DNA of 64,000 bases from Jannaschia seosinensis (GTDB taxonomy: Bacteria > Pseudomonadota > Alphaproteobacteria > Rhodobacterales > Rhodobacteraceae), in the NCBI RefSeq assembly GCF_001408515.1, contig NZ_CYPR01000055.1:62001-126000 (forward strand), in the 5' to 3' direction. The position numbers and the translations under genes were made by a program. This document shows, piece by piece, positions 54,071 to 61,814 of this stretch. The notes under the pieces were generated by a model. It was not told the origin of the DNA. It ran no database searches and worked only from the letters and a program-made list of their open reading frames with translations. Within the stretch, counting starts at the first letter, position 1. Each line of letters opens with the position of its first letter.

Positions 54071-54099
54071 CTTGACCGTCGCCGGCCCCTCGTCTAGAG
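54071..54099 (+). promoter_or_regulatory. Probable promoter of rpsT
   Basis: CTTGAC (54071-54076), 17-bp spacer, CTAGAG (54094-54099). This fits the alphaproteobacterial housekeeping form CTTGAC-N17-CTATAT (six and four of six bases). It would start transcription near 54106, about 108 nt before the rpsT start. Confidence 0.45.
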
Positions 54100-54213
54100 G
54101 CCGCCCATCATGCGTGTGAGGCCCGCTTTGGCCGGAAGTCGGGTGGCCTTTGCCGCCCTGGCCCTGCGGTTTCCCGCGCGCGACGTCATTCGCATACGCT
54201 ACGAGGAAATCCC

Positions 54214-54480
54214 ATGGCCAATACCCCCCAAGCCAAGAAGCGCGCCCGCCAGAACGAGCGCCGGTTTGCTGTCAACAAGGCGCGCCGCTCGCGCATCCGC
54301 ACCTATCTCCGCCGCGTCGAGGAGGCCATCGCCTCGGGCGATCAGGCCGCGGCCGCCGAAGCGCTGAAGGTCGCGCAGCCGGAGCTGATGCGTGGCGTCA
54401 CCAAAGGCGTCTTCCACAAGAACACCGCCTCGCGGAAGGTCTCCCGCCTGTCCGCCCGCGTGAAGGCGATCGGCGCCTGA
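54214..54480 (+). CDS. rpsT: 30S ribosomal protein S20
   Basis: Primary 16S rRNA-binding protein of the small subunit (88 aa): [20 protein letters not shown], then [19 protein letters not shown] and [20 protein letters not shown]. All typical. It ends with a strong intrinsic terminator (54550-54573). rpsT next to dnaA is a conserved alphaproteobacterial arrangement. Confidence 0.98.
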
Positions 54481-54486
54481 GCGGCC

Positions 54487-54696
54487 GATTCCCGCACATC
54501 CTGTCCGGGCGGCTGCAAGATCGCCCGGCCACAGGTCAAGAGATTCGAGAGCCCGCCATTGGCGGGCTTTTTTGTTCATATGGAACAGGGCCTTGATGGG
54601 GTGTGTGAAGATTCTGTGCCACGCCCCCGCGAGTCAAGATCGAAGAGTCGTTGAGACCCCCCTGCCCCCCCGCTATCTCATCTCAACGAGCGAGTC
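54487..54696. promoter_or_regulatory. Cluster of six GANTC (CcrM-type) methylation sites upstream of rhodanese-dnaA
   Basis: GATTC at 54487, 54542 and 54610, and GAGTC at 54631, 54645 and 54692, six sites within 210 bp; a seventh (54839) is inside the following gene. With this base composition about one site is expected per 300 bp. GANTC is the target of the alphaproteobacterial CcrM methylase, which in Caulobacter ties dnaA transcription to replication. An inverted repeat TCGTTGAGA/TCTCAACGA (54648-54656, 54681-54689) lies among the sites. Confidence 0.6.
54550..54573 (+). terminator. Intrinsic terminator of rpsT
   Basis: AGCCCGCC-att-GGCGGGCT, an 8-bp stem followed by a six-T run. It lies 70 bp downstream of the rpsT stop and is the clearest rho-independent terminator in the window. 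Confidence 0.9.
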
Positions 54697-54711
54697 AGAT
54701 CGCTTCGAAAA

Positions 54712-55170
54712 ATGGGGACATCGATGATGACGGCGGATGCGCCGCGTATTTCCGAGGTTGGACCTCGGGACGCGTGGAAGATATTGTCAGACGACAGGTC
54801 TGCCGTCCTGGTCGACGTCCGGACCCGGCCCGAATGGGGATTCGTCGGCGGACCGGACGTGAGCACGCTGGGCAAGGAGGTCGTTCGTCGTGAATGGCAG
54901 ACCTGGCCCGACATGACCCCAGACCCGGACTTCGCCCGGGCGCTGATGGACGAGATCGGGGAACTTCCCTCCCGCCTTCTGTTCATCTGCCGCTCCGGAG
55001 CACGTTCGATGCGGGCCGCCGAGGCCGTCGCGACCGTCCTTTCTGCCGAGGGCCGGTCTGCGGAATGCATCAACGTCGCGGAAGGGTTCGAAGGCGATCT
55101 CGACCCACTCGGTCACCGGGGGGGCCTGAACGGATGGAAGGCCCATGGTCTGGCTTGGCGCCAGACCTAA
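54712..55170 (+). CDS. Rhodanese-like domain protein
   Basis: Single rhodanese domain (152 aa). LVDVRTRPEWGFVGG near 34-48 and the catalytic loop LLFICRSGARSMRAAEAVAT with Cys93 and following Arg/Ser residues match an active sulfurtransferase. No signal peptide. The gene starts after the GANTC-rich region and ends 33 bp before dnaA, so it probably shares the dnaA transcript. The link to replication is positional only. Confidence 0.9.
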   Translation: MGTSMMTADAPRISEVGPRDAWKILSDDRSAVLVDVRTRPEWGFVGGPDVSTLGKEVVRREWQTWPDMTPDPDFARALMDEIGELPSRLLFICRSGARSMRAAEAVATVLSAEGRSAECINVAEGFEGDLDPLGHRGGLNGWKAHGLAWRQT

Positions 55171-55203
55171 AACGCAACGAGAATATCGGGTAGGGCCGAA
55201 GAC

Positions 55204-56544
55204 ATGAGTATGGACGCATGGGAAACCGCCAAGGGCGGCATTCGCAAGGACGTGGGCACCCACAATTACACCACCTGGATCGAGCCGCTCTCGTTCCGGT
55301 CGCTCGATGAGGGGACACTGAGCCTCGCTTCGCCGACGGAGTTCATCGGCAAATGGGTGATGCAGAACTTCGAGGAGCCGATCCTGCGCCATGTCGGCGC
55401 GACGGGTATGTCGGCCGCGCGCCTCGTCTGCGCCGCCGGCGCCCGCGCCATGCCGGCCGCGGTGCGCGCCACGCCCGACGAGACCGCCCCCCGCGCCCGC
55501 CTGCGCCAGGAGAACACGCTCGACAAGCGGTTCAACTTCGACAGTTTCGTCGTCGGCAAGTCCAACGAGATGGCCCATGCCGCCGCCCGTCGTGTGGCCT
55601 CCGGCGGGGCGGTCAGCTTCAATCCCCTGTTCCTCCACAGCCGTGTGGGGCTTGGAAAGACGCACCTGATGCAGGCCATTGCCTGGGAATTGCAGGAGAC
55701 CCAGCCCGAGAAGAAGGTCATGTACCTGTCGGCCGAGCAGTTCATGTACCGCTTCGTGCAGTCGCTGCGCGAGAAGGCGACGATGGATTTCAAGGAGCTG
55801 TTCCGCACCGTGGACGTGCTTCTGGTGGACGACGTGCAGTTCATCTCCGGCAAGAACAACACGCAGGAGGAGTTCTTCCACACGTTCAACGCGCTGGTCG
55901 ATCAGGGCAAGCAGGTCGTCATCTCGGCCGACCGCTCGCCGGCCGAAATCTCCGACGTGGAGGAGCGGATCACCTCGCGGCTCCAGCAGGGTCTGGTCGT
56001 CGACCTGCACCCCGCAGATTACGAACTGCGTCTCGGGGTGCTGCAGCAGCGCGTCGACGGCTTTGCCGCACAGAATCCGGAATTCGAGATCGCCGACGGT
56101 GTGCTCGAATTCCTCGCCAGCCGGATCACCGCGTCGATCCGGGTGCTTGAGGGCGCGGTCATGCGGCTCTTTGCCTATGCCGACCTCGTCAAGCAGGAAG
56201 TCACGCTGGAGCAGGCGCAGGATGTCCTGAGCGACCTGCTGCGTGCTTCGGAGCGCAAGCTGACCATCGAGCAGATCATGAAGGTGACCTGCGAGCATTA
56301 TGCGCTGCGGATGTCGGACATGACCTCCGCCCGCCGGTCGCGGACCGTGGCGCGGCCGCGGCAGATGGCGATGTTCCTGGCCAAGAAGCTGACCCCCCGC
56401 TCCTATCCCGAGATCGGGCGGAAATTCGGCGGGCGCGATCACACGACGGTGCTCTATGCCGTGCGCAAGATCGAGGAGCTGATGGCTAGCGAGCCGCAGA
56501 TCGCCGAGGATGCGCAATTGCTGCAGCGCAAGCTCGAAGGGTAA
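55204..56544 (+). CDS. dnaA: Chromosomal replication initiator protein DnaA
   Basis: AAA+ initiator (446 aa). Domain I at 1-80 (WETAKGGIRKDVGTHNYTTW), a short linker 80-110, AAA+ core from RFNFDSFVVGKSNEMAHAAA. The P-loop reads HSRVGLGKTHLM near 145-156, where the first Gly of GxxxxGKT is Ser. Walker B is VDVLLVDDVQFISGKNNTQE, and the Arg-finger region is VEERITSRLQQGLVVDL. The DNA-binding domain ends with DMTSARRSRTVARPRQMAMF and YPEIGRKFGGRDHTTVLYAV, the DnaA signature. Start ATG 55204. Probably cotranscribed with the rhodanese gene and controlled by the GANTC-rich region. Confidence 0.97.
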   Translation: MSMDAWETAKGGIRKDVGTHNYTTWIEPLSFRSLDEGTLSLASPTEFIGKWVMQNFEEPILRHVGATGMSAARLVCAAGARAMPAAVRATPDETAPRARLRQENTLDKRFNFDSFVVGKSNEMAHAAARRVASGGAVSFNPLFLHSRVGLGKTHLMQAIAWELQETQPEKKVMYLSAEQFMYRFVQSLREKATMDFKELFRTVDVLLVDDVQFISGKNNTQEEFFHTFNALVDQGKQVVISADRSPAEISDVEERITSRLQQGLVVDLHPADYELRLGVLQQRVDGFAAQNPEFEIADGVLEFLASRITASIRVLEGAVMRLFAYADLVKQEVTLEQAQDVLSDLLRASERKLTIEQIMKVTCEHYALRMSDMTSARRSRTVARPRQMAMFLAKKLTPRSYPEIGRKFGGRDHTTVLYAVRKIEELMASEPQIAEDAQLLQRKLEG

Positions 56545-56671: not shown

Positions 56672-57790
56672 ATGAAATTCTCCATCGAGCGCGCTGCGCT
56701 TCTTGACGCCGTAAGCCAGGCGCAGGCCGTGGTCGAACGTCGGAACACGATCCCGATCCTCGCCAACGTATTGATGAAGGCCGATGGCGACGGCGTCAGC
56801 TTCAAGGCCACCGACCTCGATATCGAGGTGATCGACACGGCCGTGGCGCAGGTCGAGCAGGCGGGCGGCACGACGGTTTCCGCGGTCCTGTTCCACGAGA
56901 TCGTGCGAAAGCTTCCCGATGGCGCACTGGTACAGCTGCGCGAGGATCAGGCGCAGGGCCGTCTGGAGGTCACGGCGGGTCGGTCGCACTTCTCGCTGGC
57001 GACGCTGGACGAGCAGGATTTCCCCGTCATGGCCTCGTCGGATTACGCGGCGAACTTCTCGTGCAAGGGCTCGGTGCTGCGCAGGCTCTTCGACAAGACG
57101 CGCTTCGCCATCTCGACGGAGGAGACGCGCTACTACCTCAACGGCGTGTACATGCATGTGGCAGAAACCGGTGACGGCCAGATGCTGCGCGCGGTGGCGA
57201 CGGACGGGCACAGGCTCGCCCGCGTGGATGCGCCCCTGCCCAAGGACGCCGAGGGGATGCCCGGGGTGATCGTGCCGCGCAAGACGGTCGATCAGGTCCG
57301 CAAGCTTCTGTCCGACGACGACGCCGAGATCGCCGTCTCGGTCAGCGAGACGAAGATCCGGTTCGCCACGCCCGCCATCACGCTGACCTCCAAGGTCATC
57401 GACGGAACCTTCCCCGATTACGCCCGCGTCATCCCCTCGGGCAACACGCGCGAGATGAAGGTGGATGCCGCCGATTTCGCCAAGGCGGTGGACCGGGTCG
57501 CGACGGTGTCCTCGGAGCGGTCGCGGGCCGTGAAGCTGAGCCTCGACGAGGACCGGCTGACGCTGTCGGTCAATGCGCCGGATTCGGGCGCGGCGGAGGA
57601 GGAGCTGGCCGTCGCCTATAGCGACGAGAAGCTCGAGATCGGCTTCAACGCCAAGTACCTGCAGGAGATCGCCGCGCAGGTCGACCGCGAGAATGCCGTG
57701 TTCCTGTTCAACGATGCGGGCGACCCGACGCTGATGCGCGAGGGCGACGACCAGAGCGCCATCTACGTCGTCATGCCGATGCGTGTCTGA
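56672..57790 (+). CDS. dnaN: DNA polymerase III subunit beta (sliding clamp)
   Basis: Processivity clamp (372 aa), three repeats of the clamp fold. The N-terminus MKFSIERAALLDAVSQAQAV with VVERRNTIPILANVLM, the middle ETRYYLNGVYMHVAETGDGQ, and the end DPTLMREGDDQSAIYVVMPM and RV are all standard. It overlaps recF by 8 bp (GTG start inside its last codons), so the two are coupled. Confidence 0.97.
   Translation: MKFSIERAALLDAVSQAQAVVERRNTIPILANVLMKADGDGVSFKATDLDIEVIDTAVAQVEQAGGTTVSAVLFHEIVRKLPDGALVQLREDQAQGRLEVTAGRSHFSLATLDEQDFPVMASSDYAANFSCKGSVLRRLFDKTRFAISTEETRYYLNGVYMHVAETGDGQMLRAVATDGHRLARVDAPLPKDAEGMPGVIVPRKTVDQVRKLLSDDDAEIAVSVSETKIRFATPAITLTSKVIDGTFPDYARVIPSGNTREMKVDAADFAKAVDRVATVSSERSRAVKLSLDEDRLTLSVNAPDSGAAEEELAVAYSDEKLEIGFNAKYLQEIAAQVDRENAVFLFNDAGDPTLMREGDDQSAIYVVMPMRV

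Positions 57791-58901: not shown

Positions 58902-61814
<2,913 letters not shown>

Follow-up and report, generated by a model that had tools for sequence, protein, structure and literature searches.

The gene dnaA is preceded, in most of the Rhodobacteraceae that we sampled, by a conserved module of about 110 bp in which GANTC, the target of the methylase CcrM, occupies fixed positions. Read from its upstream end, the module consists of GATTC (at about -76), GTCAA, 13 bp, the TTG of a -35 element, 17-18 bp, a weak -10 element, a second GANTC (at about +6) and a run of G. That this is a conserved dnaA promoter element is close to certain, and a role of methylation at the promoter is likely. The more specific reading, that the dnaA promoter is read through CcrM methylation and that the module belongs to a rhodanese-dnaA transcription unit, is one that we hold with moderate confidence. 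The arrangement suggests that initiator synthesis in these cells is timed by DNA methylation.

The GANTC cluster upstream of dnaA

The six GANTC sites of Table 1 lie within 210 bp (54487-54696) of the window, by which we mean the whole 64-kb stretch of DNA analyzed here, and a seventh, at 54839, falls within the rhodanese gene. The window contains 85 GANTC as compared with 337 (sd 17) in shuffled versions, an approximately fourfold depletion, and a sample of about 7% of the genome, made up of the window and 20 other stretches, contains 334 in 252,676 bases, or 1.32 per kb. The number expected in 210 bp is 0.27-0.28. The preliminary description had claimed a density several times the expected one, and this is confirmed: the cluster is the densest in the sample and the only place there with six sites within about 210 bp, the runner-up clusters (its own sub-clusters excluded) having four. 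The Poisson value for the six sites is about 5e-7, a figure calculated after the fact for one window position. A comparable density in random intergenic DNA would have refuted the preliminary description, but in the same sample the density between crude open reading frames is 1.28 per kb and therefore not raised.

Table 1. Features of the region from rpsT to dnaA, in window coordinates.
Feature	Position	Strand	Support
Gene resembling rpsT (ribosomal protein S20); precedes the promoter	54214..54480	+	open reading frame
GANTC site 1, shortly after the rpsT stop codon, no fixed column	54487..54491	.	
GANTC site 2, inside conserved GTCAAGAGATTCGA, before the rpsT terminator	54542..54546	.	column in 16/20 genus loci
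rpsT intrinsic terminator	54547..54571	+	consensus scan
GANTC site 3 (GATTC), about -76; the family module's upstream site	54610..54614	.	17/20 genus loci
GANTC site 4, overlaps the invariant GTCAA	54631..54635	.	17/20 genus loci
GTCAA motif, about -53, 13 bp ahead of the -35 TTG	54633..54637	+	
GANTC site 5, adjoins the -35, particular to the window's genus	54645..54649	.	15/20 genus loci
Predicted -35, TTGAGA	54651..54656	+	TTG kept in genus and family
Predicted -10, TATCTC, spacer 17, weak	54674..54679	+	conserved TA
Dyad AGCGAGTCAGATCGCT around site 6	54689..54704	.	pairing largely kept
GANTC site 6 (GAGTC), about +6; the family module's start-site GANTC	54692..54696	.	20/20 genus loci
G-run GGGGACA, likely ribosome-binding site here	54714..54720	+	kept in relatives without the open reading frame
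Gene for a rhodanese-like protein; alternative starts at 54724 or 54727	54712..55170	+	Pfam PF00581
dnaA	55204..56544	+	Pfam PF00308, PF08299, PF11638

The upstream neighbor is a gene that we take, from features of its sequence, to be rpsT-like. Downstream, the rhodanese-like gene and dnaA are co-directional and separated by a gap of 33 bp; the match of the former to Pfam PF00581 (Rhodanese; E 0.0012, 19.7 bits) is below the cut-off of 22.2, and its CRSGARS stretch is presumably an active-site-like loop. All six sites had been described as lying upstream of the rhodanese-dnaA unit. Four of them are indeed in and around its predicted promoter, while the sites at 54487 and 54542 precede the rpsT terminator, so that only four belong to the promoter. 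The -35 and -10 elements of the window were read from the sequence, a consensus promoter scan having reported nothing here, the -10 included, and the predicted transcription start would be near 54686. GTCAAGAGATTCGA (54535-54549), which is strongly conserved in the genus, resembles the GTCAA plus GANTC part of the dnaA promoter.

To compare the locus within the window's genus we aligned about 3.8 kb around dnaA from 20 genomes. The GANTC columns common to at least 10 of the 20 are those of sites 2 to 6 and one at 57581 (13 genomes), which is inside dnaN. For seven other palindromic five-base patterns, the equally shared columns are intragenic, with the exception of one that overlaps site 6. 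The start-site GANTC aligns in all of the genus loci, which carry up to 4 extra bases there. We located rpsT in 19 of the genus loci (all except L006), and 18 of these have an equivalent of site 1 between -2 and +33 nt of the end of the rpsT stop codon, L021 being the locus without one. GANTC sites are thus found at conserved promoter positions, as they would be in a promoter regulated by CcrM. The idea of a chance cluster in one genome, for which nothing speaks beyond the after-the-fact choice of the window, deserves practically no credence, since five of the six sites occupy the same columns in 15-20 of the 20 genus genomes and the outer two sites of the promoter are conserved across the family.

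A smaller group of four GANTC in 179 bp was observed at the start of gyrB (59442-59620). Its first site recurs in 18 and its last in 15 of the 18 genus loci with gyrB located; both encode Asp-Ser codons, so that coding can explain the recurrence.

With a query that we take to represent a DnaA box (TTATNCACA, at most one mismatch), no match was found within 8 kb, and four were found in the window against 6.7 expected. Because a cluster of DnaA boxes is missing, a replication origin at this place was rejected. GANTC is enriched around ori in four orders including the Rhodobacterales, according to the available part of one study (PMC9836097), and dnaA is close to ori in three orders, by implication including the Rhodobacterales, according to that of another (PMC8116508). 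These reports would fit a cluster that marks an origin or a general intergenic excess of GANTC. We nevertheless consider that explanation very improbable, given the lack of DnaA-box-like sequence, an intergenic density that is not raised and the promoter anatomy of the module.

A promoter module of the Rhodobacteraceae

For the family as a whole we took one genome per genus, and a dnaA match was obtained in 147 of 149. We fetched 60 regions upstream of dnaA, chiefly from genomes that rank high by dnaA similarity, and nine more; 20 further regions were then added, among them some from lower-ranked and ccrM-negative genomes and two of the window's genus. As most of the loci come from genomes at the head of that ranking, this sampling favors finding the module. 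A profile was built on 61 of the first 69 loci, in which two GANTC are 76-82 bp apart with GTCAA between them. The profile reaches at least 25 bits in 63 of these 69 loci. Among named Rhodobacteraceae records it does so in 31 of 33, among the extra family loci in 9 of 13 and among the ccrM-negative ones in 3 of 5. The named records are those among the matches listed in one named-genome scan, where DnaA identity was 60% at the highest, two being duplicates by their last 200 bases and four by their core. Contigs or sequence that named records have in common with the sampled genomes identify the family as Rhodobacteraceae. Two of the genomes behind the 13 extra loci have a ccrM that is truncated or was not found. 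The profile from 61 loci of other genera also finds all 20 genus loci, 18 of them at E <=8.8e-8.

In addition to the genus loci, the module is present at dnaA in 106 of the 120 other family loci fetched, a few duplicates included. The other 14 score below 25 bits, which means that some lineages do not share it. None of the 47 records fetched outside the family contains the module, although three of these are too short for it to show reliably, L192 having no DNA before dnaA and L181 and L189 fewer than 400 bases there.

Since the 61 profile loci had been selected for GANTC, figures from a core-only placement are less biased. The outer GANTC columns were omitted from this profile, and a GANTC was then sought in the flanks, within about 28 and about 18 bases. 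This placed the core in 29 of 33 named records (25 of them non-duplicate), 8 of 13 extra loci, 4 of 8 untrained loci, 17 of the 20 loci of the genus and 2 of 5 ccrM-negative loci. Where it was found, the upstream GANTC was present in 23/25 named, 8/8 extra, 4/4 untrained, 15/17 genus and 1/2 ccrM-negative loci, and the start-site GANTC in 24/25, 8/8, 2/4, 13/17 and 2/2, respectively, the four genus misses at the start site being due to too narrow a search window.

GTCAA is present in all 122 non-duplicate modules scoring at least 25 bits, and the gap between it and TTG is 13 in 111 of these and 14 in 5, TTG not being found in 6. In 99 distinct family modules the start-site GANTC has G in 99, A in 98, T in 99 and C in 99, with a center that is T in 74, G in 17 and C in 7. 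A variable center within four fixed bases is the pattern expected of a CcrM target. Purifying selection on the module is strong in most of the Rhodobacteraceae.

The same conservation could belong to a dnaA promoter that is worked by ordinary transcription factors, with GANTC incidental and methylation playing no part. Several features are in line with this. GTCAA does not vary, stands at a rigid distance from TTG and, outside the genus, is kept more strictly than the preceding GA that makes a GANTC of site 4; the upstream family site is GATTC almost without exception, its central base not being free; and both outer sites are retained in two ccrM-negative genomes. What is more, NtrX binds the dnaA promoter of Sinorhizobium and a homologue may bind that of R. 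sphaeroides, according to the available part of one report (PMC9223101). The NtrX motifs published there, CAAN2-5TTG and GCAN9TGC, do not fit a gap of 13 bp, however, and NtrX was rejected as the GTCAA binder. Ordinary factors would also leave unexplained why the start-site center can be T, G or C when the four bases that CcrM requires are fixed, and why the genus has two more conserved GANTC (54542 and 54645) in a window that otherwise holds about a quarter of the expected number. The second of these sites has no equivalent in the family consensus. On balance we regard a promoter without methylation as rather unlikely.

The module appears to be confined to dnaA. A sequence model made from 29 family modules, excluding the window's genus, was searched in 80 whole genomes and matched at dnaA in 41 of the 48 family genomes (E <=3.4e-6), comprising 20 of 20 in the genus and 21 of 28 others, several of the 28 being in the training set of the model. 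Any other matches in the family genomes had E values of 0.06 or worse, and the best in 32 genomes of other families was 0.08. This search used stricter filters, with at most 46 candidates scored per genome. A genus model found one place in the window's genome, at dnaA, with 150 of 1165 candidates scored. Both searches scored the best first-look candidates alone (at most 46 and 150 per genome) and could therefore have overlooked weak additional copies.

CcrM, GcrA and the proposed reading of the promoter by methylation

A genome without ccrM would likewise have refuted the preliminary description, but the window's genome encodes a CcrM-like protein of 370 aa, with a RAMA domain that scores over its cut-off and 78% identity, over nearly the full length, to proteins of three other family genomes. 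The adjoining gene is one that we presume to be rnhB-like. GcrA is encoded in the same genome. Of the 149 family genomes, 141 encode a protein with a RAMA domain, which we take to be CcrM, and all 149 encode GcrA. Five genomes with at least 95% completeness are ccrM-negative (G072, G152, G145, G033 and G102), and the gene may be missing from these drafts. Both outer GANTC sites are kept in G072 and G152; G145 keeps the start-site GANTC and not the upstream one; G033 (locus L193) gives a weak partial core match of 11 bits and is missing the start-site GANTC; and no module match was obtained in G102. Where outer sites occur without ccrM, the gene may be missing from the draft, or something other than CcrM may account for their retention.

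We propose that RNA polymerase would start near 54686 and that CcrM would methylate two sites, the GATTC near -76 and the start-site GANTC, which would be about 6 bp inside the transcript. The state of these sites, full after remethylation and half after fork passage, would change promoter output, and as a result dnaA synthesis would follow replication. The promoter is probably activated by a second factor, bound to GTCAA at a constant 13 bp from the -35 TTG, and GcrA or another regulator may read the methyl mark. A bolder version of this proposal, which we consider possible though doubtful, is that the Rhodobacteraceae possess a dedicated promoter of this methylation-read type, used solely at dnaA. 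The GANTC sites inside the transcript and near -76 would then bracket the GTCAA-N13-TTG activator site, the switch at dnaA, and not ctrA, would be the main link between fork passage and the cell cycle, and GcrA with an altered motif, or another protein, would read the mark.

In E. coli, the dnaA promoter contains Dam GATC sites and is subject to SeqA, so that there, too, the adenine methylation state of an initiator promoter matters. The idea works alike, but the methylase and the motif are different. The primary account of the Caulobacter dnaA promoter, its CcrM site and the DNA methylation ratchet is a paper of 2007. The ratchet model shares with our case the gene, the methylase target and the proposed logic that ties initiator to methylation, as far as can be judged from the available parts of two papers (PMC2877005, PMC3973325). 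At the level of the model, our case differs in having two to four fixed promoter sites and a GTCAA-N13-TTG core. From the parts of the sources available, Caulobacter dnaA is listed as methylation-responsive (PMC3973325), and mutating the GANTC of its promoter hardly alters activity (PMC3885167).

The GcrA/CcrM promoters of Caulobacter (ctrA P1, mipZ, podJ and ftsN) likewise have GANTC at or near core promoter elements, and the window's genome resembles that system in encoding both GcrA and a CcrM-like protein. Unlike those promoters, the present one has no YGAKTCG, its GANTC sites are outside the interval between -35 and -10, and its gene is dnaA. YGAKTCG is the motif quoted for GcrA-activated Caulobacter promoters in the portion of PMC7987155 available; the window has nine copies, none of them in 54487-54696, and the usual family start site reads CGATTCA.

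In the available part of an earlier study, the few GANTC in the ctrA promoters of the Rhodobacterales, together with the place of ctrA near ter, are the grounds on which a major role of methylation in the order is doubted (PMC8116508). GANTC at fixed positions in the dnaA promoter of most sampled family members points against that inference. GANTC upstream of cell-cycle genes has been counted in many alphaproteobacteria, with no conclusion on control in the part of the source at hand (PMC2877005). Supplementary tables such as those counts aside, no description of the module was found in the openly licensed literature searched or in the available text of the papers cited here and of PMC3667746, PMC4287350, PMC2217572 and PMC6473078. 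The conserved module names the exact bases to change.

Secondary elements and the gene served

The inverted repeat that had been reported among the sites (TCGTTGAGA/TCTCAACGA, at 54648-54656 and 54681-54689) is exact in the window, where its left arm is made up of the end of a GANTC and the TTGA of the -35. The repeat is not conserved, however. All 9 pairs are present in the window only, the other 19 genus loci keeping 1-5 of the 9, and it was rejected as a regulatory element.

The dyad around site 6, AGCGA-N6-TCGCT, retains pairing in 90.0% of cells in the genus and in 82.8% in 29 family sequences, both above slid versions. Covariation was no better than in shuffles for either set, no Rfam match was found in 54000-55300, and an RNA hairpin at the 5' end was rejected on these grounds. 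Behind it, some 20 bp into the predicted leader, the G-run GGGGGGACA persists in relatives with no long open reading frame following. A short leader open reading frame after the G-run was also discarded: many relatives have ATG and then an early stop, and others have no ATG, so that the G-run rather than a reading frame seems to be conserved.

The pairing and the persistence of the G-run could both be accommodated if selection acted at the start site on a dyad in RNA or DNA (GCGA-N6-TCGC), or on the 5' end of an mRNA carrying a G-run, with GANTC as a by-product. This is improbable in our view. The T and C of the GANTC fall in the loop of the dyad and are nonetheless invariant in the 99 family modules, neither covariation nor an Rfam match supports it, and the site at -76 would be left unexplained.

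The element belongs to dnaA. No rhodanese frame precedes dnaA in 95 of the 106 module-bearing loci outside the genus, and in 2 of the 20 genus loci rhodanese is missing and the module present. Rhodanese sits in the leader of this element, and because the module persists without the gene, a rhodanese-specific promoter was rejected. By their conserved positions the sites go with the dnaA promoter and not with rhodanese. Among family loci outside the genus, the module scores below 25 bits in 9 of 20 that keep rhodanese versus 5 of 100 that do not.

Rhodanese is followed by dnaA in 9 of the 14 family loci that lack the module and in 4 of the 47 records from outside the family. In the latter (L155, L164, L170 and L188) a rhodanese open reading frame is located shortly before dnaA. 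Its occurrence outside the family makes this gene order look old.
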